NCBI GenBank assembly: GCA_002701385.1
Contig: NZVD01000057.1
Span: forward strand, 115,089-179,088
Length of the DNA: 64,000 bases
Origin: Rhodopirellula sp.
GTDB taxonomy: Bacteria > Planctomycetota > Planctomycetia > Pirellulales > Pirellulaceae
Reading direction: 5' to 3'
Every line of letters starts with the position of its first letter. Within the stretch, counting starts at the first letter, position 1. This document shows positions 55,729 through 63,273 of the stretch, in pieces. A program made the translations under genes and the position numbers. Below the pieces are notes generated by a model. It was not told the DNA's origin. It did no database searches and was given only the letters and a program-made list of their open reading frames with translations.

Positions 55729-55839
55729 ACGACAGTTGTTTTTCCGTTTTTTGGAGAATCCTGAGTACCCGCCAAGGGTGTAGTGCGTTACTAAACTGTG
55801 GGGCATGGTTTGTGTCTAACCCAGATAGGAATTAATCGA

Positions 55840-57522
55840 ATGAAACGTCAACTTTGGGCTTTCGCATTATTGGGTCTTCTTGCCCAGATGGTTTCTCTGC
55901 CAGGCAGCGCCAATGCTCAGACTGAAGCCTCGGATTACGGAATTCAGGAAGTTGCCGAGATCAATCGGCTCATTCGCCAGGGCTGGTTGGATTATGAAAT
56001 CAGACCCTCTGTCGCAGCATCCGATGGCGAGTGGGTGCGACGTGTTTACCTGGACATCTTGGGACGCATCCCATCGGTCGAAGAGCTTCGTGAATTCACT
56101 CAAGAGCGTTCACCGGAAAAACGAAAAGCCCTCGTCACTAAGCTACTTTATGACGAAGAATACACGGAACAATACGCGAACAATTGGACAACCATTTGGA
56201 CAAACGTATTGATTGGCCGGAGCGGCGGAACCGAACGAAATAGTCTGACCAGCCGACCAGGTATGCAAAAGTACCTGCGAGACTCTCTGGCTCGCAACAA
56301 GTACTACAACGAAATGGTTTACGAACTGGTTACAGCGACTGGCTCAAACACACCGGGAACTGATCAATTCAATGGTGCTGTCAATTTCATGACGATGAAA
56401 CTTGAGGAAAAGGCGGCTCAGGCTACAGCCAAGACCTCACGTATCTTTTTGGGATTACAGGTTCAGTGCACGCAGTGTCATAACCACCCATTTAACGAAT
56501 GGAAGCAACAGAAATTCTGGGAGATGAATGCTTTCTTCCGTCAAACCAGAGCTTTACGTCGCTACGAACCTGGCACTCGCAATGTTTCGCACGTTGAATT
56601 AGTTAACGAATCCTTTCAGGGAGAAGGGTTAACAAAGGATCCTGACAAAGCTGATATCTATTACGAATTACGAAATGGTATCACTAAGGTTGCTTACCCA
56701 GTCTTTGTAGACGGTCAAACAATTGACCCCAGCGGTTATGTCGAGGACGTTATTCGTCGGGATGAACTCGGGAAGTTGATGATGGAATCCCGCTATCTCG
56801 ATAAGATGTTGGCCAATCGAATTTGGGCGCACTTTATGGGATATGGATTTACTAAGCCCATCGATGATATGGGACCACACAACCCTCCAACGCATCCAGA
56901 ATTACTTGACTATCTAGGCCAGCAGATTCGCAAGAAAAACTTCGACTTAAAGCAAATCATTTCCTGGGTTGCTCTTAGCGAACCGTACGCACTTTCAAGT
57001 CGCACTAATTCCTCCAACGAATCGCTGGATGATCCTCTGTTGGGTGAGTCTCCTAAGTTCAGCCGCTTTTACATGCGTCAAATGCGAGCTGAAGAACTTT
57101 ATGAATCATTGCTAACAGCAACGCGTGCTCACGAAGGTCGCGGAGACTATGAAGCTCAGGAAGAATTGAAATCACGTTGGCTCGGACAGTTTGTCGTTGC
57201 TTTTGGTAATGACGAAGGTGAAGAAACAACGAATTTTAATGGTACGATTCCTCAGGCCCTCATGATGTTCAACGGAGACCTGGTAAAGAAGGCGACCGAT
57301 AGTAATAAGGGCAGTTTCCTAAGTGAACTGGCTGAAAGTAATCTAAACAACACACAGAAAATAAATCACTTGTTCGAAGCTGCGTTTGCACGCAAACCCA
57401 GCACCAATGAAGTTAAAGTTGCCAATCAATTACTGATTGCCCGCAAAGGGGATCTAACTGCAGCATTGCAGGATATTTGGTGGGCTGTTCTTAACAGTAA
57501 CGAGTTTATATTAAACCACTAA
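55840..57522 (+). CDS. DUF1549/DUF1553 exported protein
   Basis: The 560-residue product has a signal peptide (LWAFALLGLLAQMVSLPGSANA) and the planctomycete DUF1549-DUF1553 architecture: 'RRVYLDILGRIPSVEELREF', 'QVQCTQCHNHPFNEWKQQ' and, in DUF1553, 'RIWAHFMGYGFTKPIDDMGP' and 'FARKPSTNEVKVANQLL'. The CxxCHNHP motif may bind haem or metal. The function is unknown. The start at 55840 is set by TAGGA nine bases upstream. It lies 54 bases before a DUF1501 gene, the usual pairing in this phylum, and closely resembles the protein encoded at 59534-61663. Confidence 0.93.
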   Translation: MKRQLWAFALLGLLAQMVSLPGSANAQTEASDYGIQEVAEINRLIRQGWLDYEIRPSVAASDGEWVRRVYLDILGRIPSVEELREFTQERSPEKRKALVTKLLYDEEYTEQYANNWTTIWTNVLIGRSGGTERNSLTSRPGMQKYLRDSLARNKYYNEMVYELVTATGSNTPGTDQFNGAVNFMTMKLEEKAAQATAKTSRIFLGLQVQCTQCHNHPFNEWKQQKFWEMNAFFRQTRALRRYEPGTRNVSHVELVNESFQGEGLTKDPDKADIYYELRNGITKVAYPVFVDGQTIDPSGYVEDVIRRDELGKLMMESRYLDKMLANRIWAHFMGYGFTKPIDDMGPHNPPTHPELLDYLGQQIRKKNFDLKQIISWVALSEPYALSSRTNSSNESLDDPLLGESPKFSRFYMRQMRAEELYESLLTATRAHEGRGDYEAQEELKSRWLGQFVVAFGNDEGEETTNFNGTIPQALMMFNGDLVKKATDSNKGSFLSELAESNLNNTQKINHLFEAAFARKPSTNEVKVANQLLIARKGDLTAALQDIWWAVLNSNEFILNH

Positions 57523-57576: not shown

Positions 57577-58848
57577 ATGAGCAGATCATCAACACCTAAA
57601 GGAATGTCCCGTCGACACTTCATGTCGCACATGACTGGGGCTTCCGCCATGACCATGCCAGCCTTGGCCATGGGTAACACCTTGCTAAACAATGCCGAAG
57701 ACCTGAAGCGTCGACGTAAGTCAGCTATCCTTCTCTGGATGGGTGGCGGGCCTTCCACGATGGACATCTGGGACTTAAAACCCGGAGCTCCTACCGGCGG
57801 TCCATTCCGTCCGATTGCCACCTCAGGCGACCAGCAAATCAGTGAGCATATGCCATTGATGGCAAAGCAAATGCATAACATGTCCATCATCCGAAGTATG
57901 AGTACTCGGGAAGCAGACCACGGTCGCGGACGTTACTACATGCACACTGGTTATGTTCCAAACCCAAATATTGAACATCCAAGTTACGGAGCTGTACTGA
58001 GCCACCAACTTTCACACCAACGTCCTGAACTGGAAATTCCTCCGTTCGTAACAGTCGGTGGTGGAAGCGTTGGCCCAGGATTCTTGGGTATGGCCTGGGC
58101 TCCGTTCTCAGTCAACTCTAATGGGCAGGTTCGCAACCTGCAGATGGGTCTTGAAGACCAGCGTCTGTACCAGCGAATGTACGCTCTGGATCTCATCGAA
58201 TCCGGCTTCATCAATCAACGCCGTGGTTCTGCAGCATCTGACCATCAGAAGATTCTCAAGAAAACCTTGAATCTGATGACAAGTTCACAAATGGACGCTT
58301 TCAAAGTGGCTGGTGAACCAGAAGACGTGAAGGAACGCTATGGAAACACCAACTTCGGCCGCGGCTGTCTCATGGCACGTCGTCTGGTTGAACAAGGAGT
58401 TCCATTTATCGAAGTCGGTCTGGGCGGCTGGGATAATCACCAAAATATCCACGCGACACTTCGCGACACCAAACTTCCGGAACTGGACCAGGCCATGAGT
58501 GCCTTGGTCGAGGACTTGGAACAACGCGAATTGCTTCAGGACACCGCGATTATCTGGATGGGTGAGTTCAGCCGAACTCCTCGGATCAATGGTAACGCTG
58601 GTCGTGACCACTGGGCACGAAGCTGGAGTGTCGTTGTTGGTGGTGGTGGCCTCAACGGTGGCCTTGCCATTGGAGAAACAAATTCCGATGGGACACGGGT
58701 AGAAACAGAACCTTACACCTCTCAGGATGTAATGGCATCTGTTTGTAAAGGATTGGGGATTTCACTCCAAACAACCTTTACTAGCCAAAACGGCCGTCCT
58801 ATGAAGATTGCCAATAGCGGCAAAATCATCAAGGAATTGTTCAGCTAA
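57577..58848 (+). CDS. DUF1501 exported protein
   Basis: The 423-residue product has a Tat-like N-terminus (MSRRHFMSHMTGASAMTMPA) and DUF1501 motifs: 'ILLWMGGGPSTMDIWDLKPG', 'IRSMSTREADHGRGRYYMH', 'IEVGLGGWDNHQNIHATLRD', 'IIWMGEFSRTPRINGNAGRD' and 'HWARSWSVVVGGGGLNGGLA'. It pairs with the DUF1549/1553 gene upstream; the two products are thought to work together at or outside the membrane, with no known activity. It is a distant paralogue of the 32194-33606 protein. A strong terminator follows. Confidence 0.93.
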   Translation: MSRSSTPKGMSRRHFMSHMTGASAMTMPALAMGNTLLNNAEDLKRRRKSAILLWMGGGPSTMDIWDLKPGAPTGGPFRPIATSGDQQISEHMPLMAKQMHNMSIIRSMSTREADHGRGRYYMHTGYVPNPNIEHPSYGAVLSHQLSHQRPELEIPPFVTVGGGSVGPGFLGMAWAPFSVNSNGQVRNLQMGLEDQRLYQRMYALDLIESGFINQRRGSAASDHQKILKKTLNLMTSSQMDAFKVAGEPEDVKERYGNTNFGRGCLMARRLVEQGVPFIEVGLGGWDNHQNIHATLRDTKLPELDQAMSALVEDLEQRELLQDTAIIWMGEFSRTPRINGNAGRDHWARSWSVVVGGGGLNGGLAIGETNSDGTRVETEPYTSQDVMASVCKGLGISLQTTFTSQNGRPMKIANSGKIIKELFS

Positions 58849-58876: not shown

Positions 58877-58920
58877 AAGGGGCGAGTGCATCCCATAGCA
58901 CCGCCCCTTTTTTGTTTTTT
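58877..58920 (+). terminator. intrinsic terminator after the DUF1501 gene
   Basis: AAGGGGCG (58877-58884) plus GTGC pairs with GCAC plus CGCCCCTT (58898-58909), with one bulged A, followed by T-rich sequence. It separates the DUF1549/1501 pair from the sigma-factor unit. Confidence 0.82.
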
Positions 58921-58990
58921 TTTTTGTATTTCCGAGTACAACTCACGCAGTTCATACGCTCTCAATACAGGGTAAGTTACGCCAACAATC

Positions 58991-59530
58991 ATGAGCGACA
59001 GAATGCCAAACTCTGAGCCTCCTGAGCCTCTAAGTCCCGAAGAATTGATACAAAAGTATCAAAATGGGATTTGGCGTTACTTGCGTGTACTGGGTTGTGA
59101 AGCATCGCTGGCAGATGATATCACCCAGGAGACCTTTTTGAGAGTCATCCGAAAGGGTTTTGAGCAGTATAACGATGCTGCCACAGCCGGATACCTACGA
59201 AAGGTGGCCTACAACCTGTTTATCTCTGTCATGCGAAGAGAAGGCAGAAAGGTTGTTACTGACGATATTGAGCAATTAGATGCGAGTTGGAATAAGTGGG
59301 CTGGAGCAGATAATGGCGACGGCCTATTGGATATGCTTCGAGAGTGTTTGGAAGGGCTAACCGAACGAGCTCGAAGTGCCTTGGAGCTCCGATTTAAAGA
59401 AGAACATACACGTTCTGCAATTGCGAACCATTTGCAAATTACAGAACACGGTGCCAAGAACCTAATGCAACGGGCCAAGAAACAACTACGAGACTGTGTG
59501 GAAAACAAAAATCAGGCGGAATTCAGTTAA
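58991..59530 (+). CDS. ECF-type RNA polymerase sigma factor
   Basis: The 179-residue protein has sigma region 2 ('GCEASLADDITQETFLRVIR' and 'YLRKVAYNLFISVMRREGRK') and region 4 ('RARSALELRFKEEHTRSAIA' to 'EHGAKNLMQRAKKQLRDC'). Region 3 and 1.1 are missing, as in ECF factors. The next gene starts 3 bases after its stop and encodes a membrane protein with a possible anti-sigma N-terminus, so the two form a coupled unit. Confidence 0.93.
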   Translation: MSDRMPNSEPPEPLSPEELIQKYQNGIWRYLRVLGCEASLADDITQETFLRVIRKGFEQYNDAATAGYLRKVAYNLFISVMRREGRKVVTDDIEQLDASWNKWAGADNGDGLLDMLRECLEGLTERARSALELRFKEEHTRSAIANHLQITEHGAKNLMQRAKKQLRDCVENKNQAEFS

Positions 59531-59533
59531 CGT

Positions 59534-61663
59534 ATGACAAACACACACGAAGATTTTAATGATCCCCTTTTGGATGTAATGCTCGAAGAGCTATTAGGTG
59601 ATACTGCGCCTCCAGATCTTTCATCTGAAATCCTCGCCCAGCTCGGCCACCAAACAGTTGATTTAGCGAGTCAGATCAATATCAACGCTCAGCCCGCCCG
59701 GAGACGGTCCTCGTTCATTCCTTCGCTCTCGCTGGCCTTATCCGCCGCCGCATGCATCCTGGCGGTTGTCGCTATTGTGCTCAATGCCAAGTCCACTCAC
59801 TCACCTCAATCACACGAAGAAGTGGTGGCAGATTCTTCAAGGCCATCCGATGCAGACAACCTTACTCCCAATCAACTTGCCAACGACCAAAATCGTCAGG
59901 AACAACAGGATCAACCAGAACAACAGATGAGGCCAGACGGTTCAACGCCATTTGAGCAGCCAAAGCCAATCGCTATGTCGGATGATAACTCGGTAAATCC
60001 GGAATCCGTCACCGTGCCGGAATTGACGCCGGCGACCAACACATGGAAGCATCCGCTAGCATTCGTTTCCACATCTAAAATCACTCCTTTGAGTCAACCG
60101 GAAGTGCTCGCAGGTATTTCTCACGAGCTCAATAAACAATGGAATGAACAGGGAATTACCCCCTCCGAATTTGCAACTAATACGGAATGGGTTCGTCGAA
60201 TCTATTTACGACTACTTGGACGTGTCCCTACTTCGAGTGAACTGATGCCTTTCCTTGAACAGGATGTTACTGAGCAGACGCGTGAAGCCTTAGTCAATCG
60301 TTTGTTATTCTCGACTCAGTATTCGGAAGAGTACCTGCAATACTGGACTAATCTTTGGACGAACACATTAATTGGTCGCCACGGTGGAACTGGCAAGGAT
60401 AAAGCTCACCGTGAAGGTCTGGCGAAGTATCTGTACGATTCTCTGCAAATCAATAAGCCATACAATCAAATTGTCAGTGACCTGATTTCAGCGACTGGAA
60501 AGTCACACCCTGATGCAGAGGGTTTCAACGGAGCTGTCAATTTTTTGCTCGCTGCCACGAACGAAGACGATACTACCTTAGCGACTTCCCGAACAACGAG
60601 CCTCTTCCTAGGACAGAAACTTCAATGTGCCCAGTGCCATAACCATCCGTCTTCAGACATCGGGCAAAATCAGTTTTGGGAAATGGATGCCTACTTCAGT
60701 CAATTGGAGATCGTTGCACTAGGTAAGGAAAAAACCGCTGGATATGAATTGCTCAATACAGATTTTCGAGGAGTGGAAACTCCTAATGGCGACGCGGGGA
60801 ACTACTTTGAACAACCCAATGGGGTCGCTCGATTAGCTTTTCCTGCATTTTTAGGACACGCAGAAGCTTCGGCGAGTGGAGCCATAGAGAATTTCGACCG
60901 CCGTGGGAGACTGGCATCGTTGGTTAGTAATTCGCCACTCCTGGAGCGAACTTTGGTTAACCGGATGTGGAGTCATTTCTTTGGCTATGGTTTTACCACC
61001 GAAGTGGACGACATGGGACCACATGTCCAGATTACTCATCCTCAGCTACTGCAATCGTTGGCCAATCAGACCCGAGCGAATAAATACAACTTAAAACTCC
61101 TACTGAAGTGGATCGCACTATCCGATCCCTTCCTTCGATCCAGTGTCTATTCCAAGTCCAACGACATCGATAGCCCAGAACTTGGGGACCAGCCACTGTT
61201 TAGCCGCTATTATTCCCGACAGCTTGATCCCGAAGAAGTCTATCAATCGTTGTTAGTCCTAAGTGGAAAAACTCGGAAAGCGAACTCCTTTGGGCAACAG
61301 CAATTAGCTCAACGCAGCTGGCTGGGTCAATTCACTCGACAAATGGAAACCGATGAAGGTGAGGAAGCAAACACATTCAAGGGAGATATTCACCAATCAT
61401 TAGTATTGATGAACGGTGATTTAATGAAACAGGTTACTTCACTGGAAGAAGATACGGTACTCAAGAGAATTGTTGTAAGCCAGCAACCCACACAGGAAAA
61501 AGTCCGTCAATTATTCCTAGCTTCACTTGCTCGCTATCCCTCTGATGAAGAGCTAAACCAGATTAAACAATTGTCCGTAGAAGCTAAGGTAGCAGAGCAG
61601 CAATTTCTACAGGATATCTGGTGGGCTCTACTGAACAGCAGTGAATTCATTCTTGATCACTAA
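59534..61663 (+). CDS. membrane-anchored DUF1549/DUF1553 protein, possible anti-sigma partner
   Basis: A 709-residue protein. The first ~60 residues are acidic and cytoplasmic ('FNDPLLDVMLEELLGDTAPP' and 'LSSEILAQLGHQ'); a membrane helix follows at about 59-80 ('SLALSAAACILAVVAIVLNA'), a Gln/Asp/Pro-rich linker, and then DUF1549-DUF1553 as in the 55840-57522 protein ('RRIYLRLLGRVPTSSELMPF', 'QCAQCHNHPSSDIGQNQFW', 'RMWSHFFGYGFTTEVDDMG'). The fusion of a short cytoplasmic domain, one helix and an external domain directly behind an ECF sigma gene is the arrangement expected of a membrane anti-sigma factor whose outer domain senses something. Confidence 0.88.
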   Translation: MTNTHEDFNDPLLDVMLEELLGDTAPPDLSSEILAQLGHQTVDLASQININAQPARRRSSFIPSLSLALSAAACILAVVAIVLNAKSTHSPQSHEEVVADSSRPSDADNLTPNQLANDQNRQEQQDQPEQQMRPDGSTPFEQPKPIAMSDDNSVNPESVTVPELTPATNTWKHPLAFVSTSKITPLSQPEVLAGISHELNKQWNEQGITPSEFATNTEWVRRIYLRLLGRVPTSSELMPFLEQDVTEQTREALVNRLLFSTQYSEEYLQYWTNLWTNTLIGRHGGTGKDKAHREGLAKYLYDSLQINKPYNQIVSDLISATGKSHPDAEGFNGAVNFLLAATNEDDTTLATSRTTSLFLGQKLQCAQCHNHPSSDIGQNQFWEMDAYFSQLEIVALGKEKTAGYELLNTDFRGVETPNGDAGNYFEQPNGVARLAFPAFLGHAEASASGAIENFDRRGRLASLVSNSPLLERTLVNRMWSHFFGYGFTTEVDDMGPHVQITHPQLLQSLANQTRANKYNLKLLLKWIALSDPFLRSSVYSKSNDIDSPELGDQPLFSRYYSRQLDPEEVYQSLLVLSGKTRKANSFGQQQLAQRSWLGQFTRQMETDEGEEANTFKGDIHQSLVLMNGDLMKQVTSLEEDTVLKRIVVSQQPTQEKVRQLFLASLARYPSDEELNQIKQLSVEAKVAEQQFLQDIWWALLNSSEFILDH

Positions 61664-61872
61664 GGTCACTCATCGGCCACAGAGCATCGGAATCTCATTG
61701 GCGGCTCAAGTCAGTTTTCATGAGTAGGTATTCCTGAAACTAAACGTGCTTTAGAAAGCCTCGTTGACTCATTCAGTTAACCGCCCCATACTGTCGGTTT
61801 CGCGTTTTAAATGCCTCGGTCTATATCAGCCGTTGAATTCTAACGCAGTATGCCCATTCGTTGAGCAGAAGT

Positions 61873-63273
61873 ATGGACGCAGTGGCCAACATCGTTAATT
61901 CCAAAACGAATATGCGTCCAATGCTGCGCCTGGCTTTACCCGTGGTGATCGAGCAATTGATGATCATGATGGTCACCTGGACGGACCACTATCTCACTGC
62001 TCAGCATCTCGAGACTCCTCACTTAGCAGCCATAAACCTAATGGCCTATGTGCTATGGGTGCTTCCCTCCATCTTTGCCGCCATTGGCGTGGGTGCCACC
62101 GCTTTGGTGTCTCGGTTCTTCGGAGCAGGTGAATATAACAAAGCAAAGTATGTGACTAATCAGGCAATTACTCTCGCGTTAATACTGCTCACAGTCATTA
62201 CCACCGTAGCCTGGATGTACCCGCGTGAACTGATCGATATTATGCAGCTTCCACCGGCGGCTACCGACGCGGGGGCTCAGTATTTCAAGATCATCATTCC
62301 TGTATTCCCATTTGCCATCATGCACATGATTGGAAATGCCTGTTTACGGGGAGCCGGAGATATCATGAGCGGCTTTGTCACCATGCTGATCGTGAACATA
62401 ATCAATGTGCTTTGCAGCCTTTGTCTCGTCACGGGCTGGGGACCATTCCCTGAATTAGGTTGGGAAGGCATTGCGATTGGAACAGCGATTGGATACGCCG
62501 TAGGTGGTTCCATTATTATCGCCTATTTGATTCGCGGACGTTTTCATTTGAAGCTCCACTTATCAAAGATGAAGCCTGACTTCAAAATGATTTCCCGCAT
62601 TCTGAAGATTGGAATACCAGGCGGGATCGACATGCTAACCGTGGTCTCATTTCAAATGTGGTTTTTGGCAATTGTCAATTCGATGGGAGATGTCGCTGCC
62701 GCGGCTCATGGCACTGCCATACGTATCGAAGCGTTAGCCTACTTACCTGGTCATGCATTCTCTGTGGCTGCCACGACCATGGTCGGTCAATTTTTAGGAG
62801 CCGGGATGCCCGGTCGCGCCAGTCGCTCTACATGGCTCGCCTGCCTTTGGGGAGGGAGTGTCATGTCATTGGCAGGCTTGATTTTCTTCTTTTCCGCCGA
62901 CGCTATTACAGGCATATTTGCAGGAGAAAAAACTGCCGAAGCCGTCGGTATGGCCGCTCCATTGATACGTATTGTCTCAATCAGCATGCCTTCTCTGGCC
63001 ATCGTCATTGTCATGACTGGTGCTTTACGCGGAGCGGGGGATACCATCTTCCCGTTGCTGTTTTCCTTTGTCGGATTACTGTTTGTTAGAATTCCACTCG
63101 CCTATTACTTGTGCTGGGATCAAATATCTTTACCCTTCTCCGACATCGTTATAGAAGGCTATGGCATGGGAGTCCAAGGCGCTTGGTATGCAATGGTAGC
63201 GGATATTGTCTTAAGAAGCCTAATGGTACTGGGCCGGTTTCAACAGGGTGGCTGGAAGCACATTAAGGTATAG
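61873..63273 (+). CDS. MATE-family efflux transporter
   Basis: The 466-residue product has about twelve membrane helices in two repeated halves, with 'MLRLALPVVIEQLMIMMVTW' at the start, 'GVGATALVSRFFGAGEYNKA' and, in the second half, 'VAATTMVGQFLGAGMPGRAS'; 'MTGALRGAGDTIFPLLFSFV' is also typical. MATE proteins export drugs or metabolites in exchange for Na+ or H+. ATG at 61873 is preferred over a TTG at 61861. It is convergent with the kinase/receiver gene, 9 bases apart, with no terminator seen between them. Confidence 0.92.
   Translation: MDAVANIVNSKTNMRPMLRLALPVVIEQLMIMMVTWTDHYLTAQHLETPHLAAINLMAYVLWVLPSIFAAIGVGATALVSRFFGAGEYNKAKYVTNQAITLALILLTVITTVAWMYPRELIDIMQLPPAATDAGAQYFKIIIPVFPFAIMHMIGNACLRGAGDIMSGFVTMLIVNIINVLCSLCLVTGWGPFPELGWEGIAIGTAIGYAVGGSIIIAYLIRGRFHLKLHLSKMKPDFKMISRILKIGIPGGIDMLTVVSFQMWFLAIVNSMGDVAAAAHGTAIRIEALAYLPGHAFSVAATTMVGQFLGAGMPGRASRSTWLACLWGGSVMSLAGLIFFFSADAITGIFAGEKTAEAVGMAAPLIRIVSISMPSLAIVIVMTGALRGAGDTIFPLLFSFVGLLFVRIPLAYYLCWDQISLPFSDIVIEGYGMGVQGAWYAMVADIVLRSLMVLGRFQQGGWKHIKV

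Follow-up and report, generated by a model that had tools for sequence, protein, structure and literature searches.

The closest described counterparts of the system reported here are found in Rhodopirellula baltica, in which the extracytoplasmic function (ECF) sigma factor RB10049 rises under heat, cold and salt (PMC2754498) and was proposed to regulate RB10051, a protein that combines a PSD1 and a PSC2 domain (Studholme et al., 2004, as cited in PMC2754498). Elsewhere, the membrane RsgI anti-sigma factors, acting with SigI in Clostridium thermocellum, sense cellulosome substrates (PMC12203970), the class II anti-sigma factor CnrY binds its sigma factor with two helices (PMC7406223), and the Geobacter chemotaxis proteins GSU0582 and GSU0935 are periplasmic c-type haem sensors (PMC3460858). 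Here we describe a locus from a stretch of 64,000 nucleotides (nt) of Rhodopirellula sp. DNA (the window; contig NZVD01000057.1, positions 115,089–179,088) in which an ECF sigma factor gene precedes a gene for a membrane protein with DUF1549 and DUF1553 domains, both downstream of a DUF1549–DUF1501 operon. Most likely, as judged from sequence comparisons, the sigma factor drives its own operon and the DUF1549–DUF1501 operon, and is held by an anti-sigma factor whose haem-c-type sensor domain is paralogous to the target. We consider it highly probable that the sigma factor and its membrane partner constitute a dedicated ECF sigma/membrane anti-sigma regulatory unit of the Pirellulaceae.

The sigma factor gene (positions 58991–59530 of the window; this and all other features given below lie on the + strand) encodes a product of 179 aa, identified from the open reading frame (ORF), from Pfam and NCBIfam comparisons and from its conservation across the family. 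Regions Sigma70_r2 (residues 19–86) and r4_2 (114–166), and no other domain, scored above the Pfam cut-off, which is the layout of ECF (group IV) sigma factors, with regions sigma2 and sigma4 only and about 180 aa; the best NCBIfam model, TIGR02989, scored 88.4 bits, under its cut-off of 124.55, and the solved relatives of the protein are SigL, SigE and SigW. The ORF of the membrane protein (59534–61663, 709 aa) starts with an ATG located 3 nt past the TAA of the sigma factor gene, exactly as anticipated by an earlier prediction made from the letters of the window alone (hereafter, the original prediction). This prediction had also described a short N-terminus, one helix, a linker and a DUF1549–DUF1553 region, and our Pfam and hydrophobicity analyses agree with that layout. 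The N-terminal part of the protein spans about 64 residues, with RRR ahead of a single hydrophobic helix at about residues 65–84 (66–84, positions 59729–59785, from hydrophobicity and the structural model), followed by a low-complexity linker (residues 85–187, positions 59786–60094) with values mostly below 50 in the predicted local distance difference test (pLDDT). Beyond the linker, PSCyt2/DUF1549 (residues 197–391, positions 60122–60706; 134.8 bits) and PSD1/DUF1553 (best stretch, residues 460–584, positions 60911–61285; 100.7 bits) are both above the Pfam cut-off, and CAQCH, a CxxCH haem-c attachment motif, occupies residues 365–369 (positions 60626–60640).

A profile search (E ≤ 1e-25) retrieved an ortholog of the sigma factor from 118 of 149 genomes of the family, presumably the Pirellulaceae; with the single sequence, sigma factors of this kind were found in 34 of 40 genomes, own genome counted, and the weakest of these 34 matches (about 25–35% identity) are probably other ECF sigma factors. 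Named relatives among the matches listed belong to Blastopirellula, Rubripirellula, Rhodopirellula and Pirellula; from this named set we examined 26 loci (L087–L112) among the best 80 listed, the remainder being distant ECF sigma factors, and a partner with CxxCH is present in all 12 Pirellulaceae-like loci (L087–L098) among the matches listed. Our family-wide survey comprised 118 loci, drawn from all of the sigma-bearing genomes but G103, G140 and G150 (115 in total). In it, a single CxxCH was found in 106 of the 113 partner ORFs that are not cut before the site, a count that omits five partners cut by contig ends. When the nearest ATG or GTG is chosen as the start of the partner, this codon lies −45 to +20 nt from the sigma stop in 94 of the 106 CxxCH partners, and 98 of them match a profile of the free DUF1549 copy at E ≤ 1e-3 (80 at 1e-10). 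Additionally, of the 102 CxxCH-partner loci having at least 2,300 nt of upstream sequence, 75 contain in it, on the strand of the sigma factor gene, free DUF1549 (at least 45% identity) and DUF1501 (at least 55%) genes. The recurrence of the sigma–partner pair across the family indicates that the arrangement is not due to chance. The original prediction had made its case depend in part on the conservation of this gene pair, which the counts for the sigma factor, for its CxxCH partner and for the outer domain of the latter uphold.

The N-terminus of the membrane protein carries a short module (residues 10–39, positions 59561–59650) that is the predicted sigma-binding part and comprises two helices around the sequence PPDL. 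An AlphaFold model (mean pLDDT 79.5; predicted template modelling score, pTM, only 0.31) has helices at residues 11–21 and 29–47, ahead of the membrane helix. The consensus of the module at partner N-termini is DxxLDxxLxExLGGxxPPDLxxxIL, and the same module opens the partners of related sigma factors whose outer domains are VWA, LRR, DUF4349 or of no assigned class. Trained exclusively on 13 of these non-DUF1549 partners, a profile finds 97 of the 112 DUF1549-type N-termini (E ≤ 1e-3), and matches the membrane protein of the window at E 1.1e-9. Among 425 ORFs of 36 neighbourhoods, this profile produced 27 matches at E ≤ 1e-3, of which 26 are sigma partners (one of them, L079, had been in the training set) and the other is a further large ORF, in L078; the genome of the window has a single copy of the module. 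Lysine and arginine are richer before than after the membrane helix in 91 of 110 partners, a charge bias that, by the charge rule, places the module in the cytoplasm as a prediction.

The fusion of the same module to unrelated outer domains is as expected of a small anti-sigma domain. Class I anti-sigma domains (ASDI) have four helices and about 100 aa on average (PMC7406223), and the window protein departs from them in having two helices, as predicted by the AlphaFold model, in the approximately 64 residues before the transmembrane helix; likewise, with no cysteine in residues 1–60, it lacks the Hx3Cx2C zinc motif, which is optional in ASDI. The module fits an anti-sigma domain that would be smaller than class I and of the size found in class II (CnrY type), the class in which two helices wrap around sigma4 and sigma2. 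The NCBIfam "antisigma" model NF052375 reached only 20 of 100 bits and was not used as evidence. From the coupling to the sigma factor and the shared module we infer an anti-sigma function for the membrane protein, and the retrieval of DUF1549-type N-termini by a profile devoid of them lends support to the anti-sigma role proposed in the original prediction. By eye, the module appears doubled in tandem at the N-termini of the L066 and L071 partners. Related sigma factors followed by the same module and VWA/YfbK-like domains (L077, L099, L111, L261, L262 and L264) form an apparent second branch of the system.

Just upstream of the sigma factor gene, where the original prediction had noted them, are a free copy of the DUF1549 protein and its DUF1501 partner. 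The gene for the free, exported DUF1549/DUF1553 (PSCyt2–PSD1) protein, which contains CxxCHNHP, is given here as 55840–57522; its listed ORF (55798–57522) opens at GTG 55798, about where transcription should start, and the ATG at 55840, judged by eye from the promoter and from relatives, is the more likely start. It is followed by the DUF1501 gene (57577–58848; ORF and Pfam), whose product has an RR signal-like N-terminus that we read by eye as a twin-arginine translocation signal. The free neighbour is the closest paralogue of the outer domain of the membrane protein in its own genome, with 42% identity, as compared to 32% for the next one. We examined this kinship in a midpoint-rooted tree with 19 free copies, 14 paralogues of the own genome and 32 of 104 sensors, which were the 26 most window-like among rows less than 75% alike plus the six least like the window. 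The 19 free copies are all on the same side of one branch (100/99), and a second branch (99/99) divides the free copies and 26 sensors from the paralogues and the six divergent sensors. The latter have long branches and are unplaceable, the sensors overall need two changes, and the tree informs on the 26 window-like sensors. Within this scope, duplication of the free neighbour at an early stage is the most likely origin of the sensor.

A domain with this origin could instead be a membrane-anchored working copy of the free protein with an anti-sigma tail, the sigma factor being controlled mainly by the amount of protein. The window domain does keep the core of the family, including CHNHP, as such a copy would. 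Nevertheless, sensors evolve faster than free copies, as seen in branch lengths and in the comparison of the window's genome (G000) with G001, which are 77% identical in the sensor and 91% in the free copy. Three of the eight DUF1549-type sensors scanned with Pfam are under the PSCyt2 cut-off (L065, L091 and L094) and that of L074 barely reaches it; moreover, the eight of the 106 sensors without a match to the free-copy profile could be called DUF1549-type from the module, the CxxCH and the alignment alone. We thus regard a working copy as improbable, and favor a sensor derived from the target. The structural model of the outer domain is confident across most of its length, and a Foldseek search returned no match in the PDB at E ≤ 0.001. 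A weak resemblance to phycobilisome linkers (best Z 6.2; Pfam E 0.048), which in Pfam, PDB sequence and fold searches involves residues of about 223–340 and 562–709, was dismissed as uninformative on function.

A comparison of seven loci of the window's genus revealed a bipartite element, defined as G[A/G]GTAC-N16/17-CG[T/C]T, that occurs upstream of both gene pairs and is new in this analysis. In the window, the predicted sigma-dependent promoter of the DUF1549–DUF1501 operon is GAGTAC-N17-CGTTAC (positions 55763–55791), and the predicted autoregulated promoter of the sigma/anti-sigma operon is GAGTAC-N17-CGCTCT (58934–58962). Between DUF1501 and the sigma factor gene there is an intrinsic terminator (58877–58926; −22 kcal/mol, z −5.9), formed by a hairpin at 58877–58909 followed by a T run, a stretch that is kept in five of seven aligned loci of the genus. 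In the window, DUF1549–DUF1501 and the sigma factor gene with its partner thus seem to be transcribed as two units; this strong terminator divides them, so that two promoters are needed, and two were found. By itself, the window offers two matches at one mismatch, which is chance level, and the case for the promoter consequently rests on conservation.

No hexamer is more enriched than GAGTAC, either upstream of the sigma factor gene (57 of 107 regions, 2.8 expected) or upstream of DUF1549 (45 of 76, 2.5 expected). Our counts of the complete element omit five loci with other outer domains and take their expected values from first-order random sequences; the family data counted also served to choose its GGGTAC variant and its spacer, as well as the 420 nt stretch searched (350 in an earlier count). 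The complete element precedes the sigma factor gene in 55 of 113 loci, with 0.08 expected and none on the opposite strand, and DUF1549 in 54 of 75, with 0.06 expected and one on the opposite strand; it occurs at both places in 16 of the 75 operon-bearing loci and at one place at least in 61. The sigma factor gene carries the element in 27 of the 82 loci having DUF1501 upstream, and in 28 of the 31 others (three of which have less than 1,000 nt of upstream sequence), as would be expected if a joined operon relies on a single promoter. The close form GAGTAC-N15 to 18 appeared in 4 of 2,785 other 320 nt windows of the same loci.

A cleaner test of the element is provided by 28 genomes without a linked operon, 21 of which have a free ortholog elsewhere (58–65% identical). 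Within the stretches retrieved (L306, L307, L323, L324 and L339–L359), DUF1501 lies behind this ortholog in 19 of 21 cases, and the element is found within 420 nt also in 19 of 21, with 0.02 expected and none on the opposite strand, although four of the 21 had been seen first through the pattern search. The element thus stays with DUF1549–DUF1501 also where the operon is distant from the sigma factor gene. Its presence at linked and unlinked operons supports control of DUF1549–DUF1501 by the sigma factor, as put forward in the original prediction, by which the sigma factor may also sense the state of the DUF1549/DUF1501 system. The promoter, the terminator, the conservation of CxxCH and the shared module are additions to that prediction.

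We also searched for further targets. With the strict consensus, the 149 genomes gave 34 matches, as compared to 5 for a reversed control pattern; 13 of the 34 are at known sigma or DUF1549 promoters, and we examined 20 of the other 21 (all but G006:C140). These 20 include four unlinked DUF1549–DUF1501 operons, and eight that show no pattern, five of them inside long ORFs. In four genera (L311, L315, L318 and L325) the element lies upstream of a gene for a secreted PSCyt1 protein with two CxxCH; nonetheless, only 3 of 12 orthologs tested have it, and none of the four from the window's genus (the ortholog of the window's genome is at G000:C46:11585–13474), and we rejected this gene as a core target. 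The 20 also comprise a lamin-tail/CotH-type protein in two genomes (L309 and L312) and an FHA-GAF-histidine kinase shared by two congeneric species (L316 and L317). In the genus search, the element was also seen upstream of an ORF in G002 (L280). A site recurring between species (L277 and kin) was discarded as a target because it lies within coding sequence. The contexts of the nine own-genome sites mentioned below and of six sites from the genus search, read by eye, contained no convincing new own-genome target.

Several observations on the module and the element count against the regulatory unit that we propose. No match of the module to a known anti-sigma family was seen in Pfam or, with a 30-position profile, in the PDB. 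GAGTAC as −35 box deviates from AAC, which PMC8103513 describes as the hallmark of ECF promoters, with CGT as an ECF −10 box. The element is at neither place in 14 of the 75 operon-bearing loci; among the 28 genomes in which no operon is linked, seven have no close free ortholog, so that either their sigma factor lacks a DUF1549–DUF1501 target or the draft genome misses the operon; and GAGTAY-N17-CGYTMY has nine matches in the own genome, including both described sites, and six with the control, which is near chance. A novel module and a nonclassical −35 box are what we would expect if the genes were mere operon neighbors, the membrane protein not touching the sigma factor and the element belonging to another regulator. 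However, partners of this sigma subfamily open with the same module regardless of their outer domain; the element has two boxes, a 16–17 nt spacer and a CGT-like −10 box, in line with PMC8103513; and it is retained at nearly all the sigma factor genes without DUF1501 found upstream. Such an association by chance is hence very improbable, and a sigma factor held by its membrane partner and acting through this element is the better account.

As for the outer domain, it rather likely carries haem c in most species, a proposal based on the conservation of the attachment motif. The window CxxCH lies after the membrane helix and, by the charge rule, is predicted to be outside the cytoplasm, and the cytochrome c assembly protein PF01578 is present in the genome. 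The seven partners without CxxCH are the VWA partners L077, L261, L262 and L264, the DUF4349 partner L263, L058 (with a frameshifted ORF, CxxCH being carried by the other frame) and that of G008, so that the motif is kept in 106 of the 107 readable DUF1549-type sensors; the 100% conservation of the corresponding columns in our 104-row sensor alignment is by selection, since this contains CxxCH sequences only. The median pairwise identity of full-length partners is about 20%, and the HP following CxxCH survives in just 37 of 106 sensors, whereas CxxCHNHP is fixed in the 77 long free copies. Retention of CxxCH in spite of this divergence and of the loss of HP is the pattern expected if the sensor needs covalent haem.

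Two observations speak against haem in the sensor. In G008 (L055), the two cysteines and the histidine are all replaced while both Pfam domains are kept, and this genome preserves its free DUF1549 copy; this loss suggests that haem is not always needed. Also, no second haem ligand is fixed: a candidate, the histidine at alignment column 659, is present in 95 of 104 sensors and only 9 of 77 free copies, but it is replaced in the window and its six nearest relatives (by Q in the window, and by Q or W overall). Both facts, together with our finding no solved relative of the outer domain, are compatible with a real pair that controls DUF1549–DUF1501 and has a CxxCH without haem, which would be a metal-binding site, a thiol-based switch or a leftover of the parent protein's structure. 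We deem this a sizeable, if minority, possibility. Set against it, the C, C and H are conserved together in sensors in which HP and most of the domain have drifted; in two Rubripirellula sensors (L091 and L094) Pfam recognizes little beyond the stretch around CxxCH; and the free parent never loses its CxxCHNHP in the long copies compared.

Taking the sensor to be a haem-c protein, the data are consistent with the following model. At rest, the N-terminal module with its two helices would hold the sigma factor at the membrane, and the outer DUF1549/DUF1553 domain, probably with covalent haem c at CxxCH, would read an extracytoplasmic signal. Candidate signals are the redox state, a small ligand, or a partner or substrate common to the sensor and the free protein; as a copy of its target, the sensor may well read the same ligand, partner or redox state as the latter, in the manner of BlaR1 with respect to the beta-lactamase and of RsgI with respect to cellulosome substrates. 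Upon signaling, proteolysis or a conformational change would free the sigma factor, which may then transcribe its own operon and DUF1549–DUF1501 from the G[A/G]GTAC-N16/17-CG[T/C]T promoters and, in some genera, perhaps also the PSCyt1 cytochrome gene. In its fullest form, with a membrane-anchored c-type cytochrome as a new kind of anti-sigma factor, a duplicated target turned into sensor, the state of the haem gating the sigma factor and a module combined with many outer domains, this reading is tentative, and we would put its chances somewhat below even.

Downstream of the anti-sigma gene, the window contains a MATE-type transporter gene, named by eye (61861–63273), and a relative is likewise placed in two loci from other genera (L061 and L071).

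DUF1549/DUF1553 proteins are very numerous in planctomycetes and form a large family of unknown function; in the genome of the window alone there are 152 matched places, often more than one per gene, and according to PMC5615132 the PSCyt genes have no known functions. A dedicated sigma factor, a predicted promoter with well-defined boxes and an anti-sigma sensor offer a way to ask when one such protein is needed and what is sensed. An anti-sigma factor with haem c would, if true, be a new type of input for ECF signaling, and the short module could be a route to more anti-sigma factors left unnamed by the libraries searched. In the open papers searched we recognized no description of a CxxCH or a DUF1549 anti-sigma factor, although an earlier account of this sigma group may exist.

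The system is a variant of ECF sigma/anti-sigma systems, and a real, conserved and self-consistent unit. RB10049 and RB10051, compared here by description, likewise are an ECF sigma factor and a DUF1549–DUF1553 protein from a related planctomycete, and that proposal is prior art for the link between the sigma factor and DUF1549, which lowers the novelty of our report; as presented in the parts of PMC2754498 concerned, it includes no anti-sigma module, argument for a haem sensor or promoter. Also by description, RsgI, a membrane anti-sigma factor that senses substrates of the exported system that it regulates, resembles what we propose for the window protein, although its signals are cellulosome substrates, whereas the outer domain in the window is a CxxCH-containing paralogue of the target. 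GSU0582 and GSU0935 are membrane signaling proteins with c-type haem in an outer sensor, as predicted for the window protein, but they have a PAS fold and a chemotaxis output instead of DUF1549/DUF1553 and a sigma factor. CnrY is similar in that the window module has two predicted helices before one membrane helix, and differs in that we saw no sequence match between them; CnrY is also not known to have a DUF1549-type outer domain. Finally, BlaR1 and MecR1 sense through a domain paralogous to the exported protein under their control (the beta-lactamase, for BlaR1), the same relationship that we propose for the outer domain and the free DUF1549 protein, although they act through a protease–repressor pathway and not through an anti-sigma factor.

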